DNA of 62,036 bases. Source: Gemmatimonadota bacterium. Lineage in GTDB: Bacteria; Gemmatimonadota; Gemmatimonadetes; Gemmatimonadales; GWC2-71-9. The DNA lies in contig VGVQ01000023.1 in NCBI GenBank assembly GCA_016874005.1, forward strand, positions 1 to 62,036. Direction: 5' to 3'. Of this stretch, positions 34,925-38,206 are shown piece after piece. The notes beneath the pieces were generated by a model that was not told the origin of the DNA, did not search any database, and worked only from the letters and a program-made list of their open reading frames with translations. The position numbers and the translations under genes are program-made. Numbering within the stretch: the first letter of the stretch is position 1; each line of letters opens with the position of its first letter.

Positions 34925-35821
34925 CTAGGCGAGAGCCTGGCACACCGCCACGACGCCGTCGGCCAGCCGGTTCGGGACGTAGCCACCTTCCATCGCGGCG
35001 GCGACGGCTGCCTTGGGAAAGCGCTCTCGAATCCGAAGGGTCCATTCGGCATAGTGCTCGGGTTCGAGGGTGAAGCCGCCGAGCAGGTCGCCCCGCATCG
35101 AGTCGAACCCCGCGGATATCAGCACCAAGTCAGGGCTCCAGCCTTCGGTAGCCCTGACGATCGCATCCCAAAGAGCCTCCTGGTAGCGGTCCGGCTCGAG
35201 CCCGGCCCGCATCGGGACATTGAAGACGTTCCCGACACCGGTCTCCTCGACGGACCCCGAGAAGGGCCAGTGGGGCCACTGGTGGAGGGAGACGAATCGG
35301 ATCGAGGGATCCTGCTCGACCAGCGCCTGGGTTCCGTTACCGTGGTGGACGTCCCAGTCGACGATCAGCACCCGCCCGGCTCCTTTGGCCTGGGCGGCCC
35401 GGGCCGCGATGACCGCTGAGGCGAAGAGGCAGAAACCCATCGGGGTCTCGCTCAGAGCATGGTGCCCGGGCGGCCGGACCGCGGCGAACGCGGGGACGCC
35501 GGCCAGGGCGCTGGCGACGGCGTCGAGCACGCCGCCGGTGGCCCCGCGGGCCGCCTCGAAGCTCTCCGGGCTCATCGCGGTATCGGGATCGAGGCGTCCG
35601 CCGCCCGCGGCGGCCACCTCGGCCAGGTGGTCCAGGTACCGGGCCGGATGGACCCGCTCGAGCGGTTCGCGCGGAGCGAGGCTCGCTACTCTGAGCGCGT
35701 CGGGGTCGAGAGCCGTAATTCGGTCGCGAACGGCGGTCAGCCGAGCGGGCGCCTCGGGGTGTCGACCACCTGGCCGATGCTCAAGGCAGATCGGATGCGA
35801 GAATACGGGGCAGAGACCCAC
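34925..35821 (-). CDS. Histone deacetylase-family (acetylpolyamine amidohydrolase-like) enzyme
   Basis: 298 aa, GTG start. Class II HDAC-type motifs are complete: HPEAPARLTAV at the N-terminus, AVRPPGHHA (catalytic His pair), VDWDVHHGNGT (zinc ligands Asp and His), ISAGFDSM (zinc Asp) and MEGGYV. In bacteria these enzymes deacetylate polyamines, acetoin-related substrates or other small acyl amides. It lies nine bases after the ubiquitin-fold gene on the same strand, so it may be co-expressed with that pair. Confidence 0.93.
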   Translation of the reverse strand: MGLCPVFSHPICLEHRPGGRHPEAPARLTAVRDRITALDPDALRVASLAPREPLERVHPARYLDHLAEVAAAGGGRLDPDTAMSPESFEAARGATGGVLDAVASALAGVPAFAAVRPPGHHALSETPMGFCLFASAVIAARAAQAKGAGRVLIVDWDVHHGNGTQALVEQDPSIRFVSLHQWPHWPFSGSVEETGVGNVFNVPMRAGLEPDRYQEALWDAIVRATEGWSPDLVLISAGFDSMRGDLLGGFTLEPEHYAEWTLRIRERFPKAAVAAAMEGGYVPNRLADGVVAVCQALA

Positions 35822-35830
35822 CGGCCGATG

Positions 35831-36085
35831 CTACTTGGCCGGGATCCGGCGGCGCGAAAGGACGATCAAGCCGGCGTTGGGGACCACCCCGGCCGACTGG
35901 AGCGTCGTGCCGCTCTCGGGAAGTTCCGCCCCGCGGAACTTGACCAGGTAGTCAGCCGCCGAGCCGCGCACTTTGGCGGCGCGGAGGGCCTCGGCCTTGA
36001 GCTGGTCGACCGGCGTCTCCGCCGGCAGCGTCACCGAGAATTCCTCCCAGGTGTCGAGCACCATGATCCGGACCGGGATGGTCAT
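35831..36085 (-). CDS. Small ubiquitin-fold (beta-grasp) protein, 84 aa
   Basis: The ATG at 36085 overlaps the previous stop (ATGA). Predicted elements follow the ubiquitin order: strand PVRIMVL, strand EEFSVTLPAE, helix TPVDQLKAEALRAAKV, strand YLVKFRGAELP, then GVVPNAGLIVLSRRR. It ends RRIPAK, without the diglycine needed for conjugation, so it is probably an interaction module and not a modifier. The fold call rests on pattern, not on a search. Partner of the 87-aa gene immediately upstream. Confidence 0.65.
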   Translation of the reverse strand: MTIPVRIMVLDTWEEFSVTLPAETPVDQLKAEALRAAKVRGSAADYLVKFRGAELPESGTTLQSAGVVPNAGLIVLSRRRIPAK

Positions 36086-36345
36086 GAGGCGGTCTCGGGG
36101 AGGGTGGACAGGAACCGTTCGACCGCCTGATCGAACAGCAGGGTCGAGGCCCGAACCCGCTCGGTGGCGCCTTGGCTGATGACCGCGATGGCGATCTCTT
36201 CCCCACCCTGGCCGCGAAGGGTGAGGAACCGTTCGCCTTCTTTTTCGGGGAAGGCCGCGTTATGGGGCACCCGCTCGGCGAAGAACGCCTTGGCCCGGCG
36301 GAGCACTTCCGCGGGCGGAAGCGAGGTTTCGGTTTCGTGGACCAT
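36082..36345 (-). CDS. Small protein of unknown function (87 aa), coupled to ubiquitin-fold gene
   Basis: ATG at 36345. Layout helix (PAEVLRRAKAFFAER), two or three strands (ERFLTLRGQGGEEIAIAVISQG), then a long helix (STLLFDQAVERFLSTLP). No cysteine, signal peptide or known motif. It overlaps the start of the ubiquitin-fold gene by four bases and sits 15 bases after the beta-propeller gene, so a two-subunit complex with the ubiquitin-fold protein is plausible. Confidence 0.65.
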   Translation of the reverse strand: MVHETETSLPPAEVLRRAKAFFAERVPHNAAFPEKEGERFLTLRGQGGEEIAIAVISQGATERVRASTLLFDQAVERFLSTLPETAS

Positions 36346-36360
36346 TGGGTTGGTACGGCC

Positions 36361-37482
36361 TCAGTAGGTGAAGATGGCGAGCCCGGTGGGCTGGGCAGGA
36401 ATCGCGACGGTGCTGACGATCTTTCGGGTGCCCAAATCGATGACGTCGATGGCGCCCGGATCCGAGCCGATCGACTCCTGCGATACGTAGGCGAGCTTGC
36501 CGTCGGGAGAGAAGGCCACCCCGTGGACGATCTTCTTGGTCGTCTTGAGCCGGACGATTTCGGTGAGCGCCTTGGCGTCGACCAGGCTGACGCTTTGATC
36601 CTTCTTGTTGGTGACGACCACCAGGGCGCCGTCCGGCGAGGGCTCCGCGTTGTAGGAGCCGGCTCCCAGGGGAATCTCCTTGATCAATGCCAGCGAAGCG
36701 GCATCCCAGACCTGAAGGCTGTTCCCGTAGTTGCAGGCGACGTAGAGGGTCTTTCCGTTGGGGGAGACCGAGACGAAAGTCCCGGCGCACTCCTTCTTGA
36801 GCAAGCCGTAGGGATCGGCGGGAGGCGGCTCCGGTGCCGTGGCCTGGTGCTGGGCGTGGGTCGCGGGGTGGCCCCCCATGTCGTGGCCCTTGCCGATCCG
36901 GACTCGGCGGCTGATCCCGAAGGTGTTGACGTCGATCTCGAGGATCTCGTCGCTGTTCATGCACGACACGTAGGCCAACGTGCCGGCCCGATTGACCTTG
37001 ACGCCGTGGGGCATGTCGCAGGCCGGCAGGTCGGTGATCTTGGCCATGGTCGGCACGTGAACGATCGACACCACGTTGGTTCGGGGACGATCGCCGTGGA
37101 AGTCGGAGTTGGCCACGAAGGCGAACTCGCCGTCCGGCGTCACGGCGATGGTGGTCGGGAACAACTCCACGGTCGCCCTGCCGATCAAGGAGTCGGTGGC
37201 GGTATCGAACCGCCACAGCGTGCCGAAGGGCACCCCGTGCGCGATGGTCACGAAGTACGACTTCATGTCCGGGGCCATGGCGATGTTGTGGGGTCCGTCG
37301 ATGTCGGCCGGCATGATCCCGACCGGGACCACCCGATCGACCACCAGCTGGTGGCCGTTTGGCTTGAGCCAGGTGACGATGTCGCCGGACTCGCTCACGA
37401 TCGCCACTTTGTACCGGGGCTCGGCCTGTTGGGCGAGCAACGGTGCCGCGAGCAGGGACCCCAACAGCAGTTGCTTGATCAT
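36361..37482 (-). CDS. Exported YVTN/cytochrome-D1-like beta-propeller protein
   Basis: 373 aa from the ATG at 37482, where a signal peptide begins (LLLGSLLAAPLLAQ). Seven or so repeats of the type TIAVTPDGEFAFVANS, VKVNRAGTLAYVSC, VSVSPNGKTLYVACNYGNS and VAFSPDGKLAYVSQES are typical YVTN propeller blades. A His/Pro-rich insertion (GHDMGGHPATHAQH, about 200-213) could bind metal. Periplasmic binding or scaffold role; no catalytic residue evident. It precedes the two small genes on the same strand. Confidence 0.85.
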   Translation of the reverse strand: MIKQLLLGSLLAAPLLAQQAEPRYKVAIVSESGDIVTWLKPNGHQLVVDRVVPVGIMPADIDGPHNIAMAPDMKSYFVTIAHGVPFGTLWRFDTATDSLIGRATVELFPTTIAVTPDGEFAFVANSDFHGDRPRTNVVSIVHVPTMAKITDLPACDMPHGVKVNRAGTLAYVSCMNSDEILEIDVNTFGISRRVRIGKGHDMGGHPATHAQHQATAPEPPPADPYGLLKKECAGTFVSVSPNGKTLYVACNYGNSLQVWDAASLALIKEIPLGAGSYNAEPSPDGALVVVTNKKDQSVSLVDAKALTEIVRLKTTKKIVHGVAFSPDGKLAYVSQESIGSDPGAIDVIDLGTRKIVSTVAIPAQPTGLAIFTY

Positions 37483-37516
37483 GGTTGCTGACTCCCTCGT
37501 CCTACCTTCGGTGACT

Positions 37517-38206
37517 TCACCGCTCGAGGTGGGCATCCACCTCTCGCTGATCGGGCTCGGGGGGCCGGAGCCGTTCCCACCACCGGACCGGTTTGACCAA
37601 GACGATCACCAACTCGCCAGCCGGCGGCTCCTCGAGCCCTTGAACCGAGAGAAATCCCGGCAACCCCAAATCGCTCGGGACGTCGACCCGGTACCGCTTG
37701 CCCGCCCAGGGAAACCGGACCACACCCGAGCCGTCGACCTCGACCTCGATAAAATAATCGTCTTCGACCCGAAAGAGGCCGCCAGGGAGCGGCTCGCCGG
37801 CCCGGTAGAACGCCGGGTCGAAGGGCTCGCCGGCCATCCGGGCGAAGTTCTGTTCCTGGGCCTCGTCGAGATCTTCGAGGCCGTCCTCCCGCGCCCGCCA
37901 TTCGACATGGTGGCGAATCTCGTGGGTCAGGGTCTCCCAGGCCTCGTGGCGCCAGTCGAAATCCGGCTGATCCCGCGCCATGGCGGCGAAGGAGCCGTGG
38001 TAGAGCACCACCCGGCTTTGGATGGTGTCCGGATCGTCCAGCGGCGCGGGGAGGGGGATGCACTCGCCCAGGGTGAAGATCTCGGCCCGTTCGGGGTGGA
38101 CCAAGGTCCGGGGCGAAACGACGATCTCGGCGATGCCCGACATGAACTCGTCGGGAATCTCGCCGGCGAGGTCCTGAACCAACCGCTCGAAGTCGCCCAG
38201 CCGCAT
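37517..38206 (-). CDS. Zincin-type metallopeptidase family protein
   Basis: 229 aa, ATG at 38206. The N-terminal ~130 residues match the small bacterial zincin family (PF06262-like): FERLVQDLAGEIPDEF, then TLTHEIRHHVEWRARE with the HExxH zinc site. The C-terminal ~90 residues form an added beta domain (GLFRVEDDYFIEVEVDG) that is not part of the usual short family members. No signal peptide. It ends 34 bases before the propeller gene start and begins just after glyS. Confidence 0.8.
   Translation of the reverse strand: MRLGDFERLVQDLAGEIPDEFMSGIAEIVVSPRTLVHPERAEIFTLGECIPLPAPLDDPDTIQSRVVLYHGSFAAMARDQPDFDWRHEAWETLTHEIRHHVEWRAREDGLEDLDEAQEQNFARMAGEPFDPAFYRAGEPLPGGLFRVEDDYFIEVEVDGSGVVRFPWAGKRYRVDVPSDLGLPGFLSVQGLEEPPAGELVIVLVKPVRWWERLRPPEPDQREVDAHLER

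Follow-up and report, generated by a model that had tools for sequence, protein, structure and literature searches.

Among described systems, the closest in layout to the locus reported here is ratA-yfjF/rnfH of beta- and gamma-proteobacteria, in which an SRPBCC-type gene precedes and overlaps the gene of a ubiquitin-like protein (Ubl). The pair RatA-RatB was formerly described as a toxin-antitoxin pair. In E. coli, the gene of RatA (Polyketide_cyc) lies just upstream of, and overlaps, the gene of YfjF/RatB (Ub-RnfH). In the excerpted text of two reports, no ubiquitin-like transfer system is linked to RatA-RatB (PMC1779556; PMC4131195). The same excerpts of one of them give YukD (EsaB), a stand-alone ubiquitin fold, as not conjugated (PMC1779556).

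The window analyzed here is the whole 62,036-nucleotide stretch of contig VGVQ01000023.1 from a bacterium of the Gemmatimonadales. It contains a small partner gene (P0002) followed by a gene of a ubiquitin-like protein (P0001). By analogy, the pair is best read as resembling RatA-RatB in layout and as unrelated to it in sequence. Order and overlap match those of RatA-RatB; the assignment of P0002 to a helix-grip fold, as in RatA, rests on tied fold matches. As in the RatA-RatB loci covered by the excerpts, the Ubl has no conjugation system nearby (PMC1779556). However, neither protein showed a detectable sequence relation to its counterpart (hhalign 0.2 and 0.1), and RatA has 158 aa, whereas the partner has 87 aa. 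The assignment of P0001 to RnfH/RatB was rejected, with an hhalign value of 0.1 and no PF03658 match in the window genome (the E. coli control was found). The Ubl as proposed below would be like YukD/EsaB in being a ubiquitin fold that acts alone without conjugation. An assignment to the YukD/EsaB family was also rejected, since P0001 scored 16.7 bits against PF08817, where the gathering score is 27 bits, and WXG100 (PF06013), found in the B. subtilis control, was absent from the window genome.

The gene pair and its flanking genes

The first-pass annotation had placed a two-gene cassette at positions 35,831-36,345. Both reading frames were found at these positions and have the ATGA in common; they lie on the minus strand, which had not been stated earlier. 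P0002 (87 aa; 36,082-36,345) is transcribed first and the Ubl gene (P0001, 84 aa; 35,831-36,085) second. In an ATGA overlap on the same strand (36,082-36,085; gap of -4), the P0002 stop codon falls within the Ubl start, and this overlap probably couples the translation of the two proteins. Neither P0001 nor P0002 matched NCBIfam, and P0002 matched no family in Pfam. No description of the pair was found in the open-access literature searched, and the first-pass annotation had not recognized it as a described system.

Three flanking genes named earlier, all on the minus strand, were identified by Pfam. A histone-deacetylase-type amidohydrolase (HDAC; 34,925-35,821; PF00850, Hist_deacetyl, 7.8e-71) begins 9 nt downstream of the Ubl gene and is a frequent neighbor of the pair. 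Upstream are a beta-propeller protein (36,361-37,536; YVTN repeats, TIGR02276; Pfam Cytochrom_D1/YNCE/Lactonase) and a zincin-like metallopeptidase (37,517-38,206; PF06262, Zincin_1, 3.3e-7), both variable neighbors. These flanks are present here, but they are not what is constant about the locus, namely the partner gene together with a beta-grasp gene. The absence of an E1/E2-type enzyme nearby, also claimed earlier, held for the open reading frames and Pfam matches beside the window locus.

Predicted folds of the two proteins

The model of P0001, built from an 81-row alignment, had a ubiquitin fold (pLDDT 89.6, pTM 0.76), and Foldseek matched it to 674 PDB entries at E<=0.001. It superposed on ubiquitin (2gbr) with a VIA-align Z of 13.2 and an rmsd of 1.1 over 74 residues, and on the bacterial Ubl 8tyx with a Z of 12.9 and an rmsd of 2.3 over 80 residues. 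PDB searches with the sequences of single proteins gave weak or composition-like matches only; the profile of the P0001 alignment (A2) matched a single ubiquitin chain, 6ob1, with an E-value of 5.6e-6. Pfam ubiquitin matched 11 of 28 members of the P0001 family at E<=1 (best 2.5e-5). Both the predicted fold and the sequence similarity to ubiquitin thus place P0001 in the ubiquitin-like beta-grasp superfamily. The beta-grasp fold read from the sequence at first pass was borne out by the model and the PDB comparison, and no other fold emerged. P0001 shares its fold with ubiquitin and with bacterial Ubls, 8tyx among them. Unlike these, Ubls of the window lineage lack the Gly-Gly end, the window genome lacks Prok-JAB, and the locus lacks an E1.

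The model of P0002 was compact and of high confidence (pLDDT 93.4, pTM 0.85), with the order b-a-b-b-b-b-a and a turn, RGQGG, that is invariant in the alignments. Foldseek gave no PDB match at E<=0.001. In VIA-align, the KA1 domain of SAD kinase (4yom) ranked highest, with a Z of 9.9 and an rmsd of 2.3 over 81, and Rv2186c (8jmy, entitled polyketone cyclase), a small SRPBCC protein, gave a Z of 9.1 and an rmsd of 3.1 over 87. The predicted fold of P0002 is nearest to these two, which are tied within one Z unit and match neither in sequence nor through a Pfam family, and its affiliation is therefore left between them. A match of the P0002 profile (A1) to polyubiquitin was discarded. It apparently reflects the RGQGG turn, which resembles a repeat junction, and it passes in no single stretch.

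Distribution and conservation

Profile searches with P0002 and the Ubl were made in a phylum sample of 298 genomes, 172 of which belong to the window order (families f1-f3). Of the 172 genomes, 165 had P0002 and 157 had the Ubl by this tally; of all 298, P0002 was found in 204 and the Ubl in 182. The first-pass annotation had held that the pair would be in doubt if the two genes did not co-occur elsewhere; both were present in 181 of the 298 genomes, P0002 alone in 23, the Ubl alone in one, and neither in 93. Among 41 close genomes, including its own, P0001 was detected in 35 with P0002 homologs adjoining, and the gene order was the same in all 28 loci, including the window locus, where BLAST found both homologs.

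When GTDB contigs were scanned with the P0002 alignment, 196 relatives were counted. The best 80 of the 196 (loci L032-L111) were all titled Gemmatimonadetes, Gemmatimonadales or Gemmatimonadota, and the Ubl gene directly followed P0002 in every one of these 80 loci. The gap between the two genes ranged from -14 to 50 nt in these best 80 and was exactly -4 in 41. HDAC was present in 77 and GlyS in 64 of these 80 loci (uncorrected for contig ends); zincin was present in 43 and the propeller in 31, with many contigs cut. The Ubl pair was met in several different gene contexts.

Close pairs indicated purifying selection on both genes, with a median dN/dS of 0.14 for 116 P0002 pairs and 0.17 for 38 Ubl pairs. 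As a rule, the pair is single-copy and syntenic with glyS and priA. The best explanation is that the two genes form a core unit of the order and have been inherited vertically. Since nearly every genome of the order keeps it, the pair likely serves a basic function, one unnamed in the open-access literature searched. The possibility of phage or plasmid cargo was rejected; P0002 had no match on plasmids, the pattern scan of viral contigs with the P0002 alignment confirmed no relative, and PHROGs gave nothing useful. A defense system was rejected as well, with no PADLOC match.

The 23 genomes with P0002 and no Ubl comprise eight of genus g47, nine of family f6 and six others. All eight sampled g47 genomes keep P0002 without a detectable Ubl, and an HDAC-type gene lies directly downstream of P0002 in the four g47 stretches fetched (L172-L175). 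Apparent in-frame stops in the g47 P0002 genes were rejected as such; they are the natural gene end in all eight genomes. In G124, the sole Ubl-only genome, the Ubl gene is flanked by glyS and HDAC-priA, and P0002 is missing. The losses in g47 and G124 indicate that each gene can exist alone, though rarely.

As a rule, the partner family precedes Ubl or MoaD

Class-wide, the fetched loci held 231 genes of the partner family, duplicates included. The gene that followed was a Ubl gene in 205 cases, moaD in 18 and neither in eight; of these eight, genus g47 accounts for four and f4/f5 for three, and the last is L285. Like the Ubl, MoaD is thus a beta-grasp protein whose gene directly follows one of the partner family, though in other families of the class. 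In f6, the P0002-family gene has an HU gene on one side and moaD-moaE-moaA on the other; MoaD, MoaE, MoaA and HU were identified by Pfam at L186, and at the other loci by eye and with a MoaD profile. Genomes of f7 and f9 carry two P0002 paralogs, one ahead of moaD and the other ahead of the Ubl gene.

By profile comparison, the P0002 groups form one family (hhalign 97.7 and 99.5), as do the Ubl groups (98.9). Compared with MoaD, however, the Ubl showed no detectable sequence relation (hhalign 19.9) and lacks Gly-Gly. P0001 was accordingly rejected as a MoaD/ThiS protein, for which it also had no PF02597 match. One partner family accompanying two beta-grasp proteins without a detectable sequence relation to each other gives a testable rule for the role of the partner.

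A tree of P0002 was made from 70 rows, a chosen subset of the 231, and 84 columns, which are too few to settle the origin of the Ubl pairing. The MoaD-linked members of f7 and f9 grouped together (98/99), and so did the f6 members (100/98). The Ubl-linked partners of f7 and f9 stood apart (100/100), and the partners of the window order were weakly united (88/63). Because the Ubl-paired partners were not one group in this tree, the Ubl pairing would be either ancestral or arisen more than once.

The P0002-family gene stands directly before moaD-moaE at L186:5056-5361, L187:4932-5237, L188:5122-5427, L179:5114-5413 and L183:4997-5266 in f6, f7 and f9, adding a small gene to the molybdopterin operon; the one tested had no Pfam match. 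In f4/f5, P0002 relatives precede a gene judged by eye to be DEAD-helicase-like (L280:3001-3252, L281 and L282), and no Ubl was found in the genomes concerned. A gene of the DEAD-helicase-like type also occurs near the f9 pair.

The C-terminal tail and E1-like genes

The C-termini of 181 unique Ubls were compared, 170 that do not end in Gly and 11 from the sister families f7 and f9. The window protein ends in RRRIPAK, which agrees with the basic end without Gly-Gly described at first pass. All 170 unique Ubls examined from the window order lack a terminal Gly and keep the basic tail, in which position -5 is Arg in 168 proteins and position -3 is Pro in 145. In all 11 Ubls of f7 and f9, an arginine-x-aromatic-Asp stretch is followed by a C-terminal Gly, or in one protein by Gly-Gly. 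The basic tail in the order and the terminal Gly in sister families, some of which have an E1-like gene near, could show a Ubl moving between covalent and non-covalent use.

No E1, E2 or deconjugase was linked to the Ubl at the window locus. The genome-wide search, which covered PF00899 and PF14464, found two E1-like (PF00899) genes in the window genome, both on other contigs, and no Prok-JAB (PF14464). The window-lineage Ubl thus lacks the hallmarks of a conjugated modifier, namely a C-terminal glycine or diglycine and linked enzymes at the locus. Eight f7 genomes were searched, and six of them have an E1-like gene on the strand of the pair, 3.5-6.5 kb upstream of it; in G179 (f9) the distance is 17.6 kb. 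The remaining four of the 11 f7/f9 genomes have the gene on another contig or, in the case of G171, at a distance of 1.5 Mb. The E1-like gene of G138 and G179 belongs to a cluster of a PALP enzyme, Prok-JAB and a ThiS-ThiF-rhodanese fusion. This E1 of f7 and f9 has its own fused ThiS domain, and oppositely oriented genes stand between it and the pair. The link between E1 and Ubl is only a lead because that E1 carries its own ThiS, and the nearby E1 was dropped as a conjugation system for the Ubl once the fused domain was seen. The glycine-ended Ubl of the two sister families is a further lead. Near the f7/f9 pair, the PALP, Prok-JAB and ThiS-ThiF-rhodanese cluster is accompanied by serine-pathway-type genes (L298:11826-14699 and L303:13845-16617).

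Proposed role of the pair

The reading that we mildly favor is that the pair is a non-covalent ubiquitin-fold adaptor, acting by binding, with a dedicated companion. The Ubl would be a stand-alone ubiquitin-fold protein that acts by binding and is not covalently attached, and P0002, a small KA1/SRPBCC-like alpha+beta domain, would be its dedicated companion. Made from coupled reading frames, the two proteins would probably form a complex in which P0002 stabilizes or positions the Ubl, and the conserved basic tail (RR-R/Q-P-V-R) could serve as a docking or recognition end. What the data show are the predicted folds, the gene order, the conservation of the pair and of the tail, the lack of a terminal glycine in the window lineage, and the position of the partner family ahead of a beta-grasp gene (Ubl or MoaD); we infer physical binding, adaptor function and the role of the tail. 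The earlier preference for an adaptor over a modifier appears better supported for the window lineage, where terminal Gly and linked enzymes are both lacking. Calculated from 181 unique pairs (Neff 136), covariation between the proteins did not exceed the background within each protein and gives no direct support for binding of P0002 to the Ubl.

As a counterpoint, expression alone may be the reason why adjacent genes are inherited together. The two could be small core genes that are adjacent through synteny and translational coupling and have no common function, as the covariation result and the separate losses of each gene would allow. We regard this as rather unlikely, however, given the several gene contexts in which the pair occurs and the presence of the partner family ahead of another beta-grasp gene, moaD, as well. 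A covalent role has a smaller chance of being right. An E1-like enzyme would then activate the Ubl as a protein modifier or sulfur carrier, the partner would escort the Ubl, and the ends of the Gemmatimonadales proteins would have diverged. The glycine ends of all 11 f7/f9 Ubls, Gly-Gly in one, the E1-like gene within 3.5-6.5 kb in six of eight f7 genomes and at 17.6 kb in G179, and its place in the PALP/Prok-JAB/ThiS-ThiF-rhodanese cluster of G138 and G179 all point in this direction. However, that E1 has a fused ThiS, genes of opposite orientation stand between it and the pair, four of the 11 genomes have it on another contig or 1.5 Mb off (G171), and synteny among the f7 genomes does not count as independent because of their relatedness. 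All 170 unique Ubls of the window order, moreover, keep a basic tail without terminal Gly.

There is a slim chance of a scheme that joins several of these elements, in which the partner family would be dedicated companions of beta-grasp proteins whose client switched between Ubl and MoaD. The Ubl would descend from, or in f7 and f9 still be, a glycine-ended carrier activated by the neighboring E1-like enzyme, retired from covalent chemistry in the Gemmatimonadales by the basic docking tail. We give similarly little weight to a toxin-antitoxin-like pair as once described for RatA-RatB, suggested by the two small coupled genes and by the same order and overlap of RatA and YfjF/RatB in E. coli. 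Such a role sits badly with a near-universal pair in the order that is as a rule single-copy and syntenic with glyS and priA, with either gene able to persist alone, with the lack of P0002 on plasmids and of a confirmed relative in viral contigs, and with the lack of a PADLOC match. A role of the Ubl in type VII secretion, as a component like YukD/EsaB, is very improbable. The weak Pfam similarity (16.7 bits, with 17 of 28 members at E<=1) lies under the 27-bit cut-off, the genome is without WXG100, and the named neighbors include no secretion genes.

Additional small gene and partner extensions

A third small gene of about 85 aa was seen between the Ubl gene and HDAC in 48 of the 80 loci L032-L111 (e.g. 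L083:2217-2471). Its best Pfam match was a sub-threshold holin-type family. It had no match elsewhere in the other loci examined, with none in the window and none in the 77 f2 loci. By eye, its product has two hydrophobic segments followed by a charged helix, and it is possibly a membrane tether. Some f2 partners carry charged C-terminal extensions ahead of the Ubl gene (L191:4821-5207 and L190:5333-5662).
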